DNA from: Streptomyces sp. NBC_00457
GTDB taxonomy: Bacteria; Actinomycetota; Actinomycetes; Streptomycetales; Streptomycetaceae
Assembly (NCBI RefSeq): GCF_036014015.1
Contig: NZ_CP107905.1
Coordinates: 8,866,001-8,930,000 of the forward strand
DNA: 64,000 bases
Direction of reading: 5' to 3'
Shown: one piece after another, positions 20,308 through 28,702 of the stretch
Layout: each line of letters begins with the position of its first letter
Position numbering within the stretch: the stretch's first letter is position 1
The notes under the pieces: generated by a model
What the model was told of the DNA's origin: nothing
Seen by the model: the letters and a program-made list of their open reading frames with translations, nothing else
Databases searched by the model: none
Position numbers and translations under genes: made by a program

Positions 20308-21003
20308 ATGGCAGAGCAACTGTCGGGACTGGCCGACGACCGCGCCCTCCTCGGGCGCACCAGCACCGCGGAACGGGTCTCGGACATCCTCAGGAGCCGG
20401 ATCGCCGAGGGCTATTTCCCGCCCGGGACGCGGCTGTCGGAGGACAGCATCGGCGGCGCGCTCGGCGTCTCCCGCAACACGCTGCGCGAGGCGTTCCGGC
20501 TGCTCACCCATGAACGGCTGCTCGTCCACGAGCTGAACCGGGGCGTCTTCGTCCGGGTGCTGACCGTCGAGGACGTCGAGGACATCTACCGCACCCGCGG
20601 CCTGGTCGAGTGCGCCGTCGTCCGAGGACTCGGCGAACCGCCGTACGTGCTGGACGGGCTCGCGGAGGCCGTCGCCGAAGGGCAGCGGGCGGCGCGCGAA
20701 GGTGACTGGAAAGGGCTGGGTACGGCCAACATCCACTTCCACCGGGAGCTGGTCGCGCTCGCCGGCAGCGAGCGCACCGACGAACTGATGCGGAGCGTCT
20801 TCGCCGAGCTGCGGCTGGCGTTCCATGTCGTGGACGATCCGAGGCGGCTGCATGAGCCGTACCTCGCGCGCAATCTGCAGATCCTCCAGGCGCTGCAGGC
20901 GGGCGAGCCGGTCGAGGCCGAGAAGCTGCTCGCGGTCTATCTCGACGACTCGCTGGAGCGGGTGGTCGAGGTGTATCTGCGGCGGGTGGGCGAGGACGGA
21001 TAG
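20308..21003 (+). CDS. GntR-family regulator, FadR/VanR (FCD) type
   Basis: 231 aa. N-terminal wHTH (VSDILRSRIAEGYFPPGTRLSEDSIGGALGVSRNTLREAFRLLTHERLLVHELNRGVFV, residues ~23-82), then an all-helical FCD ligand domain with metal-ligand style residues DVEDIYRTRGLVE, NIHFHRELVALAGS and LQILQALQAGE. Likely represses the divergent MFS-cyclase-pxpABC operon and is relieved by 5-oxoproline or D-glutamate; this follows from position only. Its stop codon lies inside the first of two tandem repeats that precede the SMC operon. Confidence 0.9.
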   Translation: MAEQLSGLADDRALLGRTSTAERVSDILRSRIAEGYFPPGTRLSEDSIGGALGVSRNTLREAFRLLTHERLLVHELNRGVFVRVLTVEDVEDIYRTRGLVECAVVRGLGEPPYVLDGLAEAVAEGQRAAREGDWKGLGTANIHFHRELVALAGSERTDELMRSVFAELRLAFHVVDDPRRLHEPYLARNLQILQALQAGEPVEAEKLLAVYLDDSLERVVEVYLRRVGEDG

Positions 21004-21093
21004 CAGGCCCGGGGGTCTGACAACTAGCAGGTCCGGGGGGTGTGACAACCGTGACGCCGGAGCCCATCTGAGTCGTTTGGGGCGTTGTCAGAC
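21001..21093. promoter_or_regulatory. Three-copy motif upstream of the SMC operon
   Basis: Two near-identical tandem units, 21001-21024 and 21025-21049, both beginning TAGCAGG and ending TGACAAC. GTCTGACAAC (21015-21024) and GTGTGACAAC (21040-21049) are direct copies; GTTGTCAGAC (21084-21093) is the exact inverse of the first. The last copy ends 21 bases before the GTG start of the first SMC-operon gene, so these are likely operator or promoter elements. Confidence 0.6.
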
Positions 21094-21114
21094 CGAGGAC
21101 TTAGTCTGTGCACC

Positions 21115-22641
21115 GTGACTTCGCCTGCATCGACGGACCGTGTTCCGCCCCAGTTCACCGCGGGGCCGCGCCCAGCTCTGGGCCCGGCCGCCGACGAGGG
21201 ACTGGCGCGGCGGCTGCGCGCGCTCGCCTGCACCGCGCCGCTGCACGACCTGGATGCCCGCAAGGCCAATCTCGCGGGCGAGTACTCGGTGTACGGCATG
21301 GCCGAGGTCGCCCTCTCCGCCATCGACCTCGTCACGCTGAACATGGACTTCGACACCGGCGCCGACCACGACCAGATCGTTGCCCGGCTCATCCCGCGTA
21401 TCGCCGCGCAGGCCCCGCAGCGGCCCGTCGTCGAACATGAGCGGGTGGCCCGGTGGGTGCTGGAGAACCTGATCAATGTCGGCAGCGTCGATCGCGGCTT
21501 TCGCGCGGTTTACGGGACCTTCGCGCCGGACGGTACGTATGTCCGGCGGGACTACGACTTCAAGCTGATCGAGGAGGTGCCGGGGCCCGGCGGCAGCGTC
21601 TATCTCCGTACGACGGACGAAGCCGTCAATGTGCTGGTCGGCGCCCTCGACACCGACGTCACCAGCGCCCAGATCGCCGCCGAGGTCAAGTTGGAGGTGC
21701 TGATCAACCGGGGCCGGCTCGCGGATGCACAGCTCGCCGCCGAGCAGGCCCGGTATCGGACCGTGCAGTACTCCGAGACGCTGCGGCGGGCGCTGGATGC
21801 CACCCGGCGCAATGTGCGCGCCGTCGACTGGCTCAGTGCCGTGCCCGACATGATCGCCGAGGCGCTCGAGCATGTCGCCGACCGCTATCGGCACGAGAAC
21901 GCGATCCTCACGAACATCCGCAAGGCGCGGGACGGGTCGGAGGACCCCGAACACAAGCGGCGTGCGGCCGAGTTGGTCGACATCGTGAAGGACTGCATTC
22001 GACGGCATACGCAGTTGCAGTCGCGACTGCTTGAGGCCGGGCCGCTGTTCCGGGCCGAGCAGGACCGGCAGGCGTTCGCCACGCCGATGGCGTCGTCGGG
22101 GATCGATCTGTATGGGCATCTTGTCGCGCCGGTGCTGCCGCTGGAGCTGGAGCGGGCGGTTCGGGTCACGGATGCGTTCTTCGCTCGCGGGACCGGGTTG
22201 CGTACTCCGGTGTCCGTTCGGGTGGGGGACCTTGTGGACATACTGCTGACTCCGCCGGTGGAGCGGGAGCATCTCGGCGCGGAGATGCCTGAGCCGGATC
22301 TCATTGCCACGCCGGATGACAGTCGGTTCAGTGAGGAGCAGCTGGCTGCGGCGATGGAGCTGCTTGATCTGCCTGCGGATGCGCCCCGGCGGTTGTCGGG
22401 GTTGCTGGTCGACGCGCGTCGGCTGGATCCTGAGTTGCCTTATCTGGTGGCCCTGTTGGCTGTTCATGCGGCTAGTCCGCCTGTTGGTACGGCGTATCGG
22501 CAGGGGGAGGAGAAGCTGCTGTTCGCCGTGGACGACGGGACCGAGCTGGAGGATCCCGAGTTCGGGGGTGCTGACCTCATCGTGGGGACGGCTTTGTTGG
22601 ATGCGGTGGGGATGGCGGCGGATCGGAGTGAGGCTGCGTGA
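21115..22641 (+). CDS. JetA/MksF-like kleisin subunit of an SMC complex
   Basis: 508 aa, soluble, strongly helical. FKLIEEV..YLRTTDEAVNVLVGALDTDVTSAQIAAEVKLEVLINRGRLADAQLAAEQARYRTVQYSETLRRAL resembles the middle of JetA/MksF proteins, where a winged helix is followed by a helical bundle; the C-terminal PELPYLVALLAVHAAS may be a second winged helix. Kleisins bridge the two SMC heads. Start is GTG 21115 by frame; no good Shine-Dalgarno is near, and TAGTCT seven bases upstream may be a -10 giving a leaderless mRNA. The identification rests on gene order and these weak patterns. Confidence 0.6.
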   Translation: MTSPASTDRVPPQFTAGPRPALGPAADEGLARRLRALACTAPLHDLDARKANLAGEYSVYGMAEVALSAIDLVTLNMDFDTGADHDQIVARLIPRIAAQAPQRPVVEHERVARWVLENLINVGSVDRGFRAVYGTFAPDGTYVRRDYDFKLIEEVPGPGGSVYLRTTDEAVNVLVGALDTDVTSAQIAAEVKLEVLINRGRLADAQLAAEQARYRTVQYSETLRRALDATRRNVRAVDWLSAVPDMIAEALEHVADRYRHENAILTNIRKARDGSEDPEHKRRAAELVDIVKDCIRRHTQLQSRLLEAGPLFRAEQDRQAFATPMASSGIDLYGHLVAPVLPLELERAVRVTDAFFARGTGLRTPVSVRVGDLVDILLTPPVEREHLGAEMPEPDLIATPDDSRFSEEQLAAAMELLDLPADAPRRLSGLLVDARRLDPELPYLVALLAVHAASPPVGTAYRQGEEKLLFAVDDGTELEDPEFGGADLIVGTALLDAVGMAADRSEAA

Positions 22642-22652
22642 TGTCTGCCGGG

Positions 22653-22701
22653 TGCGGGTTGTCTGTGGCTGGTCGCGCAGTTCCCCGCGCCCCTAAAAGC
22701 C
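22653..22701 (+). repeat. Streptomyces intergenic repeat, copy 2, inside the SMC operon
   Basis: Core TGGCTGGTCGCGCAGTTCCC followed by CGCGCCCCT, as at 15651, but the mate of the hairpin is missing (AAAAGCC follows), so it is a weak terminator at best. It fills the gap between the first and second SMC-operon genes. Confidence 0.8.
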
Positions 22702-22744
22702 TTGTTCTGCCCCCTGTTTGTCAGATGCCCGAGGAGTTTCGATC

Positions 22745-23626
22745 GTGACCGAGCACGTCGACTGGAGTGAGGTGGAGGTTGCCGCCTCCGCGCCGGTGGC
22801 GCCCGCCGTCACGCCTGCCGATGCCGCCGACGCTGCTCGGCTCGTTGCCTTTGGGTTGCAGCCGAAACTGCAGCCTGCGCGGGATCAGGAGTATGCCGAG
22901 TTGCTGCGGCGGTATCGGGAGGATCCGTCGTTCGCTCGGCTTGCTGATGCCGTTGCCGCCGGGCTCGGCCTCGTCGTGCTGGAGGTGTCCCCGCGCGCGG
23001 GGATGGCCGTTACCGCTGCCGAGGACTCGGTGTTCGCCGTGCGGATGGGGGATTACGCCCGCCGGACTTCCGCCGACTCCGGGGACCGGTTCCTGCATGG
23101 GCTCGCTCATCTTGCCGTTGCCGCCATGGCGTTCCCGCGCCCCGAGGACCTTGCTGATGACGGGTACATCGGGCGGATCACGGTCAACGGGGTCGATGCC
23201 TTTGTGCGGCAGGCCTGTCGGCGGCTGGAGGAGCGGGCCGAGGTGCGGGGGGAGAACACCGATCCGGCCACGGACGCGCCCGGCCTTGAGGCCGCCTGGC
23301 GGATCTGGGTGAGACGGAGTGCGACCGGTGCCACCAAGGACGCGCGAAGACTGGCTGGTTCGACGACCGGCATCATCGGCAAGGCCGTCGCCTTCCTGAC
23401 CGACTCCGGGTTTCTGCAGCGCACGGGCGACGACAACGGCGGGACGTATCGGACGACGGCCCGGTATCAGCTCCAGGTGCGTGACATGGCGGGCAGTGCG
23501 GCCATGGCCGAGCTGCTGGAACTGGGCGTCGTGCCGGTCACCGACGGGACGCCGACGCTGCTGCCCGCCGAGGAGTCCGACGACCCGGAGCTGGTGGCCG
23601 ACGCCGGGCTGCCGTTCCACTCCTGA
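22745..23626 (+). CDS. JetB/MksE-like winged-helix subunit of an SMC complex
   Basis: 293 aa soluble protein. The middle (FAVRMGDYARR... FLHGLAHLAVAAMAFPRPEDLADDGYIGRITVNGVDAFVRQACRRLEE) and the C-terminal block ITGKAVAFLTDSGFLQR-like segment with TYRTTARYQLQVRDM look like tandem winged helices, as in MukE/MksE/JetB, which bind the kleisin dimer. GTG 22745 has GAGGAG eight bases upstream; an in-frame TTG at 22718 lacks this. Sits between the kleisin-like gene and the SMC gene (36-base gap). Function by context. Confidence 0.6.
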   Translation: MTEHVDWSEVEVAASAPVAPAVTPADAADAARLVAFGLQPKLQPARDQEYAELLRRYREDPSFARLADAVAAGLGLVVLEVSPRAGMAVTAAEDSVFAVRMGDYARRTSADSGDRFLHGLAHLAVAAMAFPRPEDLADDGYIGRITVNGVDAFVRQACRRLEERAEVRGENTDPATDAPGLEAAWRIWVRRSATGATKDARRLAGSTTGIIGKAVAFLTDSGFLQRTGDDNGGTYRTTARYQLQVRDMAGSAAMAELLELGVVPVTDGTPTLLPAEESDDPELVADAGLPFHS

Positions 23627-23662
23627 CCGCATCGACTGCCTTCACGACTACGAGAGTCCGCC

Positions 23663-26600
23663 ATGTACGAGCTGTCCCGGGTCCGCCTCTACTCCATCGG
23701 TCCGGCCGGTGCGCGCTACGCCGACACCGTGCTTGACCTGCGGGGAGTCGGCGAGCCCGTGCCCGACCCCGCGCCCACGCAGGCGGAGTTCTTCGAGGAG
23801 GAGCCCGTCGGCCCGCCGCGCCGGCCCGCGCCGGCCGGTGTGCTCTTCCTGGAGAACGGCGGCGGCAAGTCCGTCCTGCTCAAACTGATCTTCTCGGTGA
23901 TGCTGCCGGGACACCGGAACACGCTGGGCGGCGCCAGCTCCGGTGTGCTGCGCAAGTTCCTGCTCGCGGACGACTGCGGGCATGTGGCGCTGGAGTGGCA
24001 GCACGTGCTGACGGGCGAGTGCGTCGTCGTCGGCAAGGTGAGCGAGTGGCGCGGGCGGCAGGTCTCGAACGATCCGCGGAAGTTCGCCGAGGCCTGGTAC
24101 TCGTTCCGGCCGGGGCCCGGGCTGAGCCTGGACAATCTGCCGGTCGCCGAGTCCACCGCCGTACGGCCGTCCGTCGAGGGCGCGTCCGGTGCGCAGGGGC
24201 GGCGGCGCACCATGAAGGGCTTCCGGGACGCCCTCACCGAGGCCGGGAAGGCGTACCCGCATCTGGAGGTGCACTGGGAGGAGATCCACGACCGGTGGAT
24301 CGAGCATCTCGGCGACCTCGGTCTCGACCCCGAACTCTTCCGCTACCAGCGGGAGATGAACTCCGACGAGGGCGAGGCGGCCGGTCTCTTCGCGGTCAAG
24401 AAGGACTCCGACTTCACGGATCTCCTGCTGCGGGCGGTGACCGATACGCGGGACACCGACGGTCTCGCCGACCTGGTCGGCGGCTTCGGCAACAAGCTGG
24501 GGCGGCGGGCCGAACTGATCGCCGAACGCGACTTCACCGCCGGGTCGGTCGATCTGCTGGGGCGGATCGTCGAGGCCGCCGAGGCGCGGGCACGCGCGCG
24601 TGACATCCATGCCGGTGCCGAGCGGCGGACCCGGACGCTGGCCCGGCGGCTGTCCGCGCGTGGTGCGCAGGAGCGGGTGCGCGCCGCCGACCTCGCCCAG
24701 CGGGTCACCGGCGCCGCGCAGGCCGTCACGCACGCCGAGGGCGCGCGGGAGCGCAGTGCGCTGATCGCCGCCGAACTCGCTTACCGGCATGCGTCGTTGG
24801 CGCTCGCCGGCGCCGAGAAGTCGGCCGCCGCGCAGAAGCGGGAACTCGCCGACGCGCGCACCCTGCACTCGGCCTGGCAGGCCGCCGAGGCGGTGCTGCG
24901 GCACCGCGCCGCCGCCGACCGGGTCGCCCGAGTCGCGGCCGCCATCCAGGAGGCCGAGCGTGACGCCGCCCCGGCGCTCGCCTCGCGCGCCAAGGCCGCC
25001 GTCGATCTCGTACGGGCCCTGCACGCGGCCGCGGACGGCGCCGAAGCCCTGGCCAACGAAGGGGAGGAGCGGTCCGCGGCGCTCCAGGAGGTCAGCGAAT
25101 CCGCCCACCGGGACTCCACCTCCGCCGCCACGGAGGCCCAGCGCGCCCGCAGCGAGGCGGGGCATCTGCGGCAGCGGCTGTCCGAGGTCGAGCAGGAGAC
25201 CGCGGAGGCGGTGCGGGCGGGCTGGCTCGACGACAGCGCGCCCGACGCCGATCCCGCGCGGGCCGCGCTCGCCGCCAGCGACGCCGAGAAGACGGCGGTC
25301 GCCGCCTGGGACACCGCGCGCGAGGCATCCCACCGGGCCACCGAGCACGCCCGGGAAGCGGCTTCGGCGGAGTCCCGCGCGGAACTCACGGCGGCCCGCG
25401 CGGCAGACGCGGCAACGGCTGCGGAACGCTCGTACGAGGCAGAACGCCGCCTCGCCGAGGGTCTCGCGGCGGAGGAGCGGCTGGCGGAGCTGCTGAGCCT
25501 GACCGGTGCCTCCGGGGCGGTGGGTACGGTGCCGGGGCCCCGGACGGGGGCGGATGGTGCGGCTGGACGCGAGCGCTCCGACGCGGCTGGACGTGGCGGG
25601 TCCGCGCGGGCCGGGAGTGGCGTGTCCGGTGGAGGCGACGGTGGGGAGGCGGGCGACGGCAGGGATTCGTGGGCTGCGAGTGGTACGGCTGGCCGGGGTC
25701 GTGGAGGCGGGGCGGACGGTGGCGGGTCCGCTCGTGCCGGGAGTGGCGTGTCCGGTGGACGCGTTGGTGGCGAGGCGGGCGACGGCGGGGCTTCCTGGGA
25801 CGCGGGTGGTGTGGCTGGCCGGGGTCGTGGAGGCGGGGCGGATGGCGGCGGGGACGCGCGCGCCGGAAGCGACCCGTCCGTTGAAGGCGGAGATGGTGCG
25901 TCCGCCGGAGGCACGAGGCCTGCGAACGGTGATGACGTCGAGCCGCGTTCCCGGGTCGGCCTGACGACCCCGCGCCCTCTCACCCAAGGCCTCCTCAGCC
26001 CCGAGGAGCTCGACCGCTGCGCCGACGACCTCCGTCAGCTCCTCGACGTCGCCGTCTCCTCCGCCGAGCGACAGCTGTTCGAGCTGCGGACCGCTGCCGC
26101 CGACGACGCCCGGATCCTGGGCGCGCTCGGTGACGGCGGGCTGCTGCCGCCCGGGCCCGACGTGCTGGCCACCGTGGAGTTCCTCGGCGAGCACGGCATC
26201 CCGGCGCTGCCCGGATGGCGGTATCTCGCGCAGGCCGTGGACCCCGCCGATCACGCGCGCGTGCTGGCCGCCCGGCCGGAGCTGGTCGACGGCGTGATCA
26301 TCACCGACCCGGCCACGCACGCGCGTGCCCGCGAGGCGCTGAGCGAGGCGGCGCTGCTGCCGCGGTCCGCCGTCGCGGTCGGTACGGCCGCCGCCCTGCT
26401 CGCCCCGACTCCGGCACCCGACGCGAGCGGCGGCGACGTCTTCCTCGTACCGCCGAACCCCGCCATGCACGACGAGCAGGCCGCCGACGAGGAACGGCAG
26501 GCGCTGCGGGCGCGGGCGACCGAGCGGGACGAGGAGATCCGGACGCTCGCGGCACGGCTCGGAAAGGACCGGGAACTGACCGCGCGCCTGGCGTCCTGGC

Positions 26601-28702
26601 GTACCGGCTGCCCGGCCGGACGGCTGGTCGAGCTGGCGGAGGCGGCCCGGGAGACACGCGCGTTCGCCGAGGAGGCCGAGGCCGAGCTGGCCGAGGCGCG
26701 CACCGTCCGGGCGGAGGCCGACGAAGCCGCCGCCGAGGCCGCACAGGTACGGGACGAGCGGCAGGAGGCCGCCCAACGAGCCCGCCGCTCCGCCGACGCC
26801 CTGGCCGGGCTCGCCTTCCGGCTGCGTGAACGGTCCGGCTGGCAGGTGAAACTGCGCGAACTCGCCGACGAAGCGACCGAGTCGGAGGCCCGTGCCCAGG
26901 CCTGTCTGGAGCGCGCCCGGGCCGCCGACGAGGACCGGCGTGCCGCCCAGCGCGCCGCCGACGACGCCCGCCGCACCGCCCGTGCGCTGCGCGCCGAGCG
27001 CGCCGAGATCGCGGGCGCCCCCGACGACGTACCGGAAGCCGACCCGGATGCTCCGACGTCGTCCCTTCCCGCCCTCCGCGAGGCCTATCGCGCCGCATCG
27101 CAGCTGTACGAGAAGGTCGGCGTCGACGCCGATCTGCGGGCCGAGCAGGCCCGCGCGGAGAGCGACGAGAGTGCGGCGCGGGCCGAACTCGACCGGCTCA
27201 GCAACAAGGTCCGCACGCGCGCGGAGCAGCTGCTTCAGTCCCCGGACGGGTCCGACGGGCCCTCCCGGCAGGCCGCCGTAGCCCGGGCCGAGGAGCTGGT
27301 GCAGCTTCTGGAGACCCGGATGTCCAGCGCGAGCGAACAGCTGGGGCGGCTGCGCGGCGAGGCCGAGCGGCACGCGCCCGACGACGGCGAGGCACACACC
27401 GAGCTGCCCGAGGAGCTGGTGCCCCGCGACGCCGAGCACGCGCAGGCCCTGCTGCGGACCGCCACCGCCGAACTCGCCTCCCGCACCGAGGCGTTGAGCC
27501 AGGCCCGGGAGGCGCACGCCGAACTCCTCGACGCCCACCGGGCCGCCGAGGACGCGGCCGGCGGCTTCGACGAGATCGCCGCGATGCTGCGTGACCTGCT
27601 GCGCGAGCACACCTCGGACGAGGAGCAGGACGAGCAGGAGCCGTATCCCGGCAGCCTGGACGAGGCGCGCCAGTCCGGCGCCGAGGCACGGCGCTCCCTG
27701 CGGGGCTGCGCCGCCGACCTGTCCGCCGCCGAGTCCGCCGTACGAGAGGCGAGCGATGTGCTCGTCCGGCATGCCAACTCCACGCGGTACGAGCACGTAC
27801 GGACGCCTGCGCGGCAGCAGATCCGGGAACTGCCCGCCGCCGCGCTGCCCGAGCACGCGCAGAAGTGGGCGGACGCGTTCGCGCCCCGACTGCGGGTGCT
27901 GACCGATGAGTTGGCGCAGCTGGAGCGGAACCGGGACTCGATCGTGGACCGGCTCCGCGGGCTCGTCGAGTCGGCGCTGGCGACTCTGCGGTCCGCCCAG
28001 CGGCTGTCGCGGTTGCCCGAAGGGCTGGGGGAGTGGTCCGGGCAGGAGTTCCTGCGCATCCGCTTCGAAGAGCCCGACCAGGCCACGCTCACCGAGCGGC
28101 TCGGCGAGGTCATCGACGAGGCGACGCGGGCCGCGGTGAAGAAGAACTCCGATCTGCGGCGGGACGGGATGTCCTTGCTGCTGCGGGGAGTCGCGGCGGC
28201 GCTGCAGCCGAAGGGTGTGGCCGTCGAGATCCTCAAGCCGGACGCGGTGCTGCGTGCGGAGCGGGTGCCGGTGGGGCAGATGGGCGATGTGTTCTCGGGT
28301 GGTCAGCTGCTCACCGCGGCCATCGCCTTGTACTGCACGATGGCCGCGCTCAGAAGCAACGACCGGGGGCGCGACAAGCACCGGCACGCGGGCACGCTGT
28401 TCCTCGACAACCCCATCGGGCGGGCCAACGCGACATATCTGCTGGAGCTTCAGCGAGCCGTGTCGGATGCGCTCGGTGTCCAACTCCTCTACACGACGGG
28501 CCTGTTCGACACGACCGCACTGGCCGAGTTCCCGCTGGTCATCCGGCTGCGCAATGACGCGGATCTACGGGCCGGGCTCAAGTACATCAGCGTGGAGGAG
28601 CACCTCCGGCCGGGACTGCCGCAGGCTCCCGCCGGGGAAGGCGGACACAGCGAGATCACGGCGACGCGGATGTTCAAACGTCCGGCGCCCAGCGCAACCT
28701 AG
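23663..28702 (+). CDS. JetC/MksB-like SMC ATPase
   Basis: 1679 aa. N-terminal head with Walker A ENGGGKS (E64-S70); long Ala/Glu/Arg-rich coiled coils about residues 290-620 and 940-1460; a globular hinge-like part about 815-930 (ILGALGDGGLLPPGPDV..ELVDGVIITDPATHARARE); C-terminal head with ABC signature FSGGQ (1544-1548) and Walker B LFLDNP (D1582, N1583). Heads at both ends with a folded-back coil define SMC/MukB proteins. The usual Glu after the Walker B Asp is Asn here. A glycine-rich tandem-repeat insert occupies about 612-770. Preceded by JetA- and JetB-like genes; no JetD-like nuclease gene follows. Confidence 0.85.
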   Translation: MYELSRVRLYSIGPAGARYADTVLDLRGVGEPVPDPAPTQAEFFEEEPVGPPRRPAPAGVLFLENGGGKSVLLKLIFSVMLPGHRNTLGGASSGVLRKFLLADDCGHVALEWQHVLTGECVVVGKVSEWRGRQVSNDPRKFAEAWYSFRPGPGLSLDNLPVAESTAVRPSVEGASGAQGRRRTMKGFRDALTEAGKAYPHLEVHWEEIHDRWIEHLGDLGLDPELFRYQREMNSDEGEAAGLFAVKKDSDFTDLLLRAVTDTRDTDGLADLVGGFGNKLGRRAELIAERDFTAGSVDLLGRIVEAAEARARARDIHAGAERRTRTLARRLSARGAQERVRAADLAQRVTGAAQAVTHAEGARERSALIAAELAYRHASLALAGAEKSAAAQKRELADARTLHSAWQAAEAVLRHRAAADRVARVAAAIQEAERDAAPALASRAKAAVDLVRALHAAADGAEALANEGEERSAALQEVSESAHRDSTSAATEAQRARSEAGHLRQRLSEVEQETAEAVRAGWLDDSAPDADPARAALAASDAEKTAVAAWDTAREASHRATEHAREAASAESRAELTAARAADAATAAERSYEAERRLAEGLAAEERLAELLSLTGASGAVGTVPGPRTGADGAAGRERSDAAGRGGSARAGSGVSGGGDGGEAGDGRDSWAASGTAGRGRGGGADGGGSARAGSGVSGGRVGGEAGDGGASWDAGGVAGRGRGGGADGGGDARAGSDPSVEGGDGASAGGTRPANGDDVEPRSRVGLTTPRPLTQGLLSPEELDRCADDLRQLLDVAVSSAERQLFELRTAAADDARILGALGDGGLLPPGPDVLATVEFLGEHGIPALPGWRYLAQAVDPADHARVLAARPELVDGVIITDPATHARAREALSEAALLPRSAVAVGTAAALLAPTPAPDASGGDVFLVPPNPAMHDEQAADEERQALRARATERDEEIRTLAARLGKDRELTARLASWRTGCPAGRLVELAEAARETRAFAEEAEAELAEARTVRAEADEAAAEAAQVRDERQEAAQRARRSADALAGLAFRLRERSGWQVKLRELADEATESEARAQACLERARAADEDRRAAQRAADDARRTARALRAERAEIAGAPDDVPEADPDAPTSSLPALREAYRAASQLYEKVGVDADLRAEQARAESDESAARAELDRLSNKVRTRAEQLLQSPDGSDGPSRQAAVARAEELVQLLETRMSSASEQLGRLRGEAERHAPDDGEAHTELPEELVPRDAEHAQALLRTATAELASRTEALSQAREAHAELLDAHRAAEDAAGGFDEIAAMLRDLLREHTSDEEQDEQEPYPGSLDEARQSGAEARRSLRGCAADLSAAESAVREASDVLVRHANSTRYEHVRTPARQQIRELPAAALPEHAQKWADAFAPRLRVLTDELAQLERNRDSIVDRLRGLVESALATLRSAQRLSRLPEGLGEWSGQEFLRIRFEEPDQATLTERLGEVIDEATRAAVKKNSDLRRDGMSLLLRGVAAALQPKGVAVEILKPDAVLRAERVPVGQMGDVFSGGQLLTAAIALYCTMAALRSNDRGRDKHRHAGTLFLDNPIGRANATYLLELQRAVSDALGVQLLYTTGLFDTTALAEFPLVIRLRNDADLRAGLKYISVEEHLRPGLPQAPAGEGGHSEITATRMFKRPAPSAT
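25604..25855 (+). repeat. Two 126-bp tandem repeats inside the SMC gene
   Basis: Units 25604-25729 and 25730-25855 encode two 42-residue Gly/Ala/Ser/Arg-rich repeats (each starting ARAGSGVSGG), with a third broken copy from 25856 (ARAGSDPS). They sit in a disordered insert ahead of the hinge-like domain. In the first unit only 29 of 42 codons end in G or C, well below the rest of the gene, and no frame there shows normal codon bias, so the stretch probably grew by slippage or recombination. Confidence 0.85.

Follow-up and report, generated by a model that had tools for sequence, protein, structure and literature searches.

The three consecutive genes at positions 21115-28702 of the window (the whole stretch of 64,000 nucleotides of Streptomyces sp. 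NBC_00457 that was analysed) are, as judged from their sequences, intact JetA, JetB and JetC genes of Wadjet type III, and the trio has almost certainly been domesticated from a type III Wadjet lineage, with JetD missing. What is new here is a near-universal type III trio that lacks JetD and has a RecA-NDp-type promoter of its own. Taken as a whole, we are inclined to read it as a nuclease-free, Wadjet-derived SMC motor that would be made upon DNA damage and would act on the chromosome; PafBC control, damage induction, loop extrusion and a repair role are what we infer for jetABC.

The three genes, found by calling of open reading frames, are co-directional, and the features of the locus are as follows.

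20308..21003, plus strand: FCD/GntR regulator, neighbouring gene (Pfam).
21074..21081, plus strand: conserved CGTTTGGG box just 5' of the promoter (alignment conservation).
21085..21107, plus strand: RecA-NDp-type promoter TTGTCAG-N10-TAGTCT, with 7 nt between its end and the JetA GTG.
21115..22641, plus strand: JetA3/MksF-like kleisin, 508 aa, GTG start (PADLOC match).
22745..23626, plus strand: JetB3/MksE-like partner, 293 aa (position and identity to other JetB).
23663..28702, plus strand: JetC3/MksB-like SMC ATPase, 1679 aa (PADLOC match).
23858..23872, plus strand: Walker A (GGGKS) of JetC, identical in 20/20 core rows.
25499..26005, plus strand: Gly/Ala/Ser low-complexity insert in JetC, about residues 613-781.
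28292..28306, plus strand: ABC signature FSGGQ of JetC, identical in 20/20 core rows.
28397..28414, plus strand: Walker B LFLDNP of JetC, with Asn replacing the usual Glu, as in JetD-bearing rows.

The gene order JetA-JetB-JetC, which a preliminary description of this DNA had proposed, was borne out by PADLOC for the outer genes and by orthology for the middle one. Namely, the JetA3 model PDLC00567 matched the first gene with an E of 3.7e-185, and the JetC3 model PDLC00588 matched the third with an E of 0 and 1424.8 bits; Pfam returned a single match for the third gene, below cut-off (E 0.21), and NCBIfam models matched none of the three. No family model of PADLOC, Pfam or NCBIfam matched the second gene. 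Since four JetB genes of other type III operons were likewise without a PADLOC match, this library may lack the JetB in question, and we assign the gene by orthology, that is, by its position and by an identity of 32-54%, in alignment, to the middle gene of JetD-bearing type III operons. An alternative jetB start is the TTG at 22718. The GTG start of jetA is kept in all 80 named Streptomyces loci (best 80 of 546).

The operon shows the marks of a maintained system. Walker A, signature and Walker B of JetC are unchanged across 20 of 20 core rows, that is, the near-fixed copies of Streptomycetaceae (in the 49-row motif scan, the pattern for the signature matched a different stretch in L108). Walker B reads LDNP in 49 of 49 JetC rows, JetD-bearing ones included, and the missing Glu is thus a type III trait and not a loss that occurred here. 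JetC Walker A ends in GGGKG, not GGGKS/T, in the JetD-bearing L015, L117 and L118. When NBC_00457 was compared with six genomes of the genus, dN/dS was 0.04-0.09 for JetA, 0.07-0.11 for JetB and 0.09-0.18 for JetC, as against 0.10-0.15 for the housekeeping SMC across the same six pairs, with JetC above SMC in the most distant of them (0.182 vs 0.152). The trio is therefore under purifying selection like that on the housekeeping SMC. The low-complexity insert of JetC, which lies before the hinge, is built by 126-bp tandem repeats at 25589-25866 and gives the NBC_00457 protein about 158 extra residues, against no more than 75 in the other JetD-less rows of the comparison. A longer JetC was considered as a mark of the JetD-less clade and rejected, the extra length lying at differing places and being small in several rows.

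No JetD is encoded in the operon, as had been noted, and neither is one recognised elsewhere in the genome: JetD_C (PF09983), DUF3322 (PF11795) and JetD3 (PDLC00594) found no match in its 10.8 Mb, which form one contig. As a positive control, Corynebacterium glutamicum was matched by both Pfam models, PF09983 and PF11795; the JetD3 model matched none of 14 control genomes, yet it matched 29 of 200 genomes of the genus Streptomyces (E 1e-3). With the same settings JetD_C was found in 25 of these 200 and added three genomes to the 29, so that 32 genomes have a match to one or the other and 168 lack a recognisable JetD. JetA is present without a recognisable JetD in 165 of the 200, and the three genomes lacking a JetA3 match have no JetD match either.

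The trio itself is nearly fixed in the genus. Conservation in Streptomyces, a check suggested by the preliminary description, came out at 197 of 200 genomes with a JetA3 match, the matches in G369 and G402 being weak, and such an occurrence rules out chance. JetC3 matched 199 of 200 genomes of the family Streptomycetaceae, in 17 of 17 genera, a count in which a match may be the core or an accessory copy. Across the class the figure falls to 51 of 296, made up of 31 genomes of the genus, 19 of a second family (f83) and one weak match; at least one f83 genome (G685) lacks JetC3. Among the named Streptomyces loci (best 80 of 546), JetA was found in 80, JetB in 79, JetC in 79 and JetD in none, and the closest named homologues listed are from Streptomyces, with Embleya, Streptacidiphilus and Allostreptomyces further out. 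A practical consequence is that single-gene JetA3 or JetC3 models will flag nearly every Streptomyces genome, though most are without JetD.

It had been considered that a jetD gene might be clearly paired with this operon elsewhere, and none was found next to those core copies whose sequence continues past JetC. This holds for 0 of 19 core loci in Streptomycetaceae and 0 of 9 in f83, a count from which L017 and L136 were left out, as their contigs stop right after JetC. Likewise, no jetD was found near the 65 named Streptomyces loci for which 10 kb is available on each side, nor near all 80 when shorter flanks are counted (best 80 of 546 in both cases). Instead, where JetD occurs it belongs to a separate JetABC copy. 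All 15 genus genomes with a strong JetD3 match (E below 1e-49) carry JetD directly downstream of its own JetABC; these are the JetD loci that were examined, the other 14 of the 29 matches having E values above 1e-10. In two of these JetD-bearing loci the genes are incomplete as read, the JetA end lying beyond the contig in L123 and JetC being split in two frames in L121. At least two JetA matches are present in 14 of the 15 genomes, and G471 has one, its accessory JetA being off the contig; from these counts a further JetABC copy exists in each genome, and the core copy was examined in two of them (L023, L130). Of 17 non-core copies chosen by their JetA or JetC match, 15 have JetD adjoining JetC, one (L024) is cut by the contig end, and one (L025, in G279, from another family outside the class) has JetA and JetB followed by a match to the front part of JetC only, without JetD, and is possibly a broken copy. 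Thus, JetABCD3 systems are second, patchy copies with jetD directly downstream. In two genomes (G375 and G431) the accessory JetABCD3 (L128 and L132) is no more than about 70 kb away from the contig ends, and JetD matches occur at both of these, an arrangement that would suit terminal inverted repeats.

The trees place the core copies within the type III lineage. In the JetA tree (44 rows) the 19 Streptomycetaceae core copies form one group with support of 92/99 and short branches, placed among JetD-bearing lineages. When family f83 is included, the JetD label needs two changes on the JetA tree, and a single JetD-less clade is not rejected (p-AU 0.43); in the tree of the JetC head (49 rows) all JetD-less rows form one group, with weak support (77/50), and a JetD-bearing f83 copy is close to it. 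The simplest reading is that JetD was lost once, in a common ancestor, two losses being possible. At only two JetA positions are residues fixed differently between JetD-less rows (26) and their JetD-bearing sisters (14), which gives no clear sign of a lost JetD surface. As for the rows used, the first JetA tree omits L116, L099, L024 and L025 (short, split or partial operons) and L123 (no JetA), and the tree with f83 also omits L027 and L129 (long branches) and L132, L120, L021, L019 and L022 (near-copies and thinning). Partial, broken, long-branched or thinned rows were likewise omitted from the JetC head tree (L024, L025, L027, L129, L132, L120, L021, L019, L022, L121, L141 and L140).

The second line of evidence is the promoter, which we take to be of the RecA-NDp (PafBC) type, a DNA-damage class, and which predicts a near-leaderless jetA mRNA. 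The consensus is reportedly that of Gamulin in 2004, and was anchored on recA of the same genome, where 7 nt separate the end of the site from the first GTG in the longest recA frame; the likelier recA ATG lies 36 nt beyond that GTG. In the upstream alignment of the window with the named loci there is almost no conservation until the CGTTTGGG block, followed by the promoter, seven bases and the GTG, and within the 125 nt before jetA in Streptomyces nothing but the box and the promoter is strongly conserved. The pattern TGTC[AG]G-N10-TAnnnT stands before jetA in 80 of 80 named loci (best 80 of 546), 7 nt from the GTG in 79 of them and 6 nt in one. In the 3.2 Mb of these loci, both strands included, it occurs 81 times, 80 of them at jetA, and the reversed pattern does not occur. 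Core loci of Streptomycetaceae with a readable start have the motif in 17 of 19 cases, L107 and L112 carrying TGTCC variants, and CGTTTGGG or CGTTTCGG variants of the box are also present in several other genera. At the JetD-less copies of f83 no RecA-NDp-like motif was found (0 of 10 loci).

Across the genome of NBC_00457 the stricter pattern TGTCAG-N10-TAGnnT has 45 sites, compared with 2 for the reversed control, and this strain thus appears to have a sizeable RecA-NDp-type regulon. Thirty of the 45 sites were fetched, and in 15 of them the longest frame starting within 300 nt starts 5-9 nt past the motif, among them a gene for an Exo_endo_phos protein, whose ATG is 7 nt from it. Ten downstream genes, picked from the 30 fetched sites because they resembled repair genes, encode RecA, a DEAD-type helicase, the Exo_endo_phos protein (exonuclease III-like), an NAD-dependent ligase (LigA), two UvrD-type helicases, DNA polymerase III alpha, ThyX, an HhH-GPD protein and a YjbR protein. 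The motif and the spacing at jetA are thus those of recA and of repair genes of the same genome, as in a RecA-NDp/PafBC regulon. In S. coelicolor such a promoter has been described at recA and at the UV-inducible SCO6735 (PMC5087735), and mycobacterial PafBC uses it (PMC6789036, PMC8223512). Streptomyces encode PafBC homologues, and the account that reports them states that a first search for the PafBC motif of M. smegmatis did not show it to be conserved in S. venezuelae (PMC9380542). Given a promoter of this type, jetABC should be made upon DNA damage, and we consider its induction by damage probable. The motif is also found within 300 nt of JetA in 6 of 28 JetD-bearing type III operons (L015, L106, L117, L118, L121 and L126). 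It follows that damage control may predate the loss of JetD or be unrelated to it, and some true Wadjets may be damage-inducible as well.

With respect to its surroundings, the operon sits in ordinary chromosome, as had been described, Pfam confirming the FCD/GntR regulator upstream and a GMC oxidoreductase downstream. The regulator, which we do not think is part of the system, is present at 79 of 80 named Streptomyces loci (best 80 of 546) and was not found beside some core copies, for example L016; the GMC enzyme is present at 18 and a kinase at 40 of the same 80 (best 80 of 546). On one side, the Streptomyces trio adjoins what we take to be a 5-oxoprolinase-type cluster, with a presumed MFS transporter and the GntR gene, and on the other side, further on, there is presumably a conservon-type kinase operon. 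Downstream of JetC no gene is kept across the genera examined, and hence the operon has no conserved fourth partner. In L116 (G520) a stretch of about 5 kb with unrelated genes separates JetB from JetC, and JetA is seen in part only. In family f83 (L135-L144) the JetD-less JetABC occupies a different, recurring site, near a gene that we assume to be TerD-like. An equation of the trio with SCO1631-1633, drawn from taking the neighbouring conservon for the one beside SCO1631 in S. coelicolor, was rejected: SCO1631 is named as the helicase HelY, and SCO1632 and SCO1633 as Tat genes.

Comparison of JetA with MukBEF at the level of structure, which the preliminary description had proposed for all three proteins, gave a tentative result. 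The eight top Foldseek matches of the JetA model (pLDDT 58), among 350,542 chains, are chains of MukEF or MukBEF structures, the matched chain being MukF by its length, and none reaches an E of 0.001. Fold matches of the JetB model (pLDDT 47) are not meaningful and were set aside. The models are poor because the alignments held close homologues only (92 of 200 listed for JetA and 70 of 120 listed for JetB). Sequence searches of the PDB, with JetC alone and with profiles of JetA and JetB, returned no Jet, Muk or Mks chain.

How might such a complex work? JetC would be the SMC ATPase of the motor, JetA its kleisin and JetB the small partner, and the proposed path is that a type III Wadjet motor lost its nuclease and became a chromosomal factor of Streptomycetaceae. 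Without JetD, extrusion of DNA could not end in cleavage, and the complex could therefore work on the chromosome and leave it uncut. Upon damage, jetABC would be made alongside recA, ligA, uvrD and others, and JetABC would act at breaks or stalled forks by extruding or tethering the DNA around them, a role such as might be expected of a relative of MksBEF, RecN or Smc5/6. The MksBEF-like make-up, the housekeeping-like selection and the damage-type promoter together point to a nuclease-free chromosome motor, most likely in the DNA-damage response; from the promoter we further infer the repair role. That JetABC acts on the chromosome, in repair or in segregation, is the side to which we lean, with some reserve. 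Of the two ideas in the preliminary description, a chromosomal loop extruder or a system with a different effector, the near-universality, the type III ancestry and the promoter favour the chromosomal motor.

The main competitor, which we regard as rather unlikely, is a housekeeping condensin that organises or segregates the chromosome constantly, possibly serving the linear chromosome arms or the multiple genomes of a hypha, with the promoter giving basal expression only. It would agree with the near-universality and the SMC-like selection, with the JetD-less trio that f83 keeps without the motif, and with Pseudomonas aeruginosa, where MksBEF contributes to chromosome organisation (PMC10586767). 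Constant expression sits poorly, however, with a damage-type promoter and a CGTTTGGG box kept in 80 of 80 named loci (best 80 of 546); moreover, all 20 genomes searched with SMC_N also have a strong match to an SMC of this family, and a second constant condensin would need a reason.

Less probable still is that the trio remains in defence, JetABC recognising small circular or invading DNA and silencing it or passing it to a nuclease encoded elsewhere. Its nearest relatives in the trees are indeed type III JetABCD operons, Wadjet by sequence, some of which share the promoter type. Nevertheless, such a role would have to be reconciled with 168 of 200 genus genomes lacking a recognisable JetD, with the want of an adjoining gene kept across the genera examined, and with a copy that is near-fixed and not patchy. 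Among 72,556 plasmid records searched, 5 hold a JetA-like gene, every one below 60% identity, and none holds a JetA of 60% identity or more. For a decaying relic, a Wadjet on its way out after losing jetD, only the missing gene itself speaks; dN/dS values of 0.04-0.18 contradict decay, as do intact ATPase motifs, a conserved promoter and a JetA3 match in 197 of 200 genus genomes, making this explanation highly improbable.

Set beside known systems, the nuclease-free, damage-responsive motor that we prefer shares with type III Wadjet (JetABCD3) the PADLOC JetA and JetC models, the gene order and the ATPase motifs, including the LDNP Walker B, and differs from it in having no JetD in operon or genome; the Streptomycetaceae core copies are near-fixed, with shorter branches, whereas JetABCD3 is patchy. 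Its closest precedent is MksBEF of Pseudomonas. In P. aeruginosa, too, kleisin, partner and SMC genes form an operon without a nuclease gene, from which the Streptomycetaceae trio is set apart by its type III ancestry and its RecA-NDp-type promoter, and by being known from sequence. MksBEFG of C. glutamicum, also an actinobacterium, is likewise a Muk-like system that accompanies SMC as the second of its kind, but it keeps the nuclease MksG and reportedly acts on plasmids, not in chromosome organisation (PMC7083940). MukBEF is also a nuclease-free motor, and the low-confidence JetA model may resemble MukF; MukBEF apparently replaced Smc-ScpAB in its hosts (PMC10586767), whereas the Streptomyces trio has SMC alongside. 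Loss of the nuclease giving rise to a chromosome organiser thus has precedent (PMC10586767, PMC7083940).

As to previous work on the genus, a survey of Actinobacteria found Wadjet to be enriched, and in Streptomyces mostly towards the chromosome ends (PMC10482375); its main text, from which the word JetD is absent, does not appear to mention a JetD-less core copy. A 2026 paper on Streptomyces condensins speaks of SMC and does not name Wadjet (PMC13121528). In the titles and abstract beginnings of the open-access papers listed by the searches we found neither the Streptomyces trio nor a link between Jet and PafBC; the words Wadjet and PafBC occur together in PMC9122601, and Wadjet and mitomycin C in PMC11318856.

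If our reading is true, a Jet motor of a different lineage would join those that lost their nuclease and turned into chromosomal SMC complexes, and it would do so in the antibiotic-producing genus that has been studied best. A near-fixed, conserved trio makes the action of Jet motors on the host chromosome directly testable, with the clear prediction that jetABC is induced by mitomycin C or UV through PafBC. More tentatively, throughout the family, and perhaps the order, a type III Wadjet motor may have become a damage-switched, nuclease-free SMC complex that repairs or protects the cell's own chromosome beside the normal SMC. In function it would be a bacterial equivalent of Smc5/6 that arose from an immune system.
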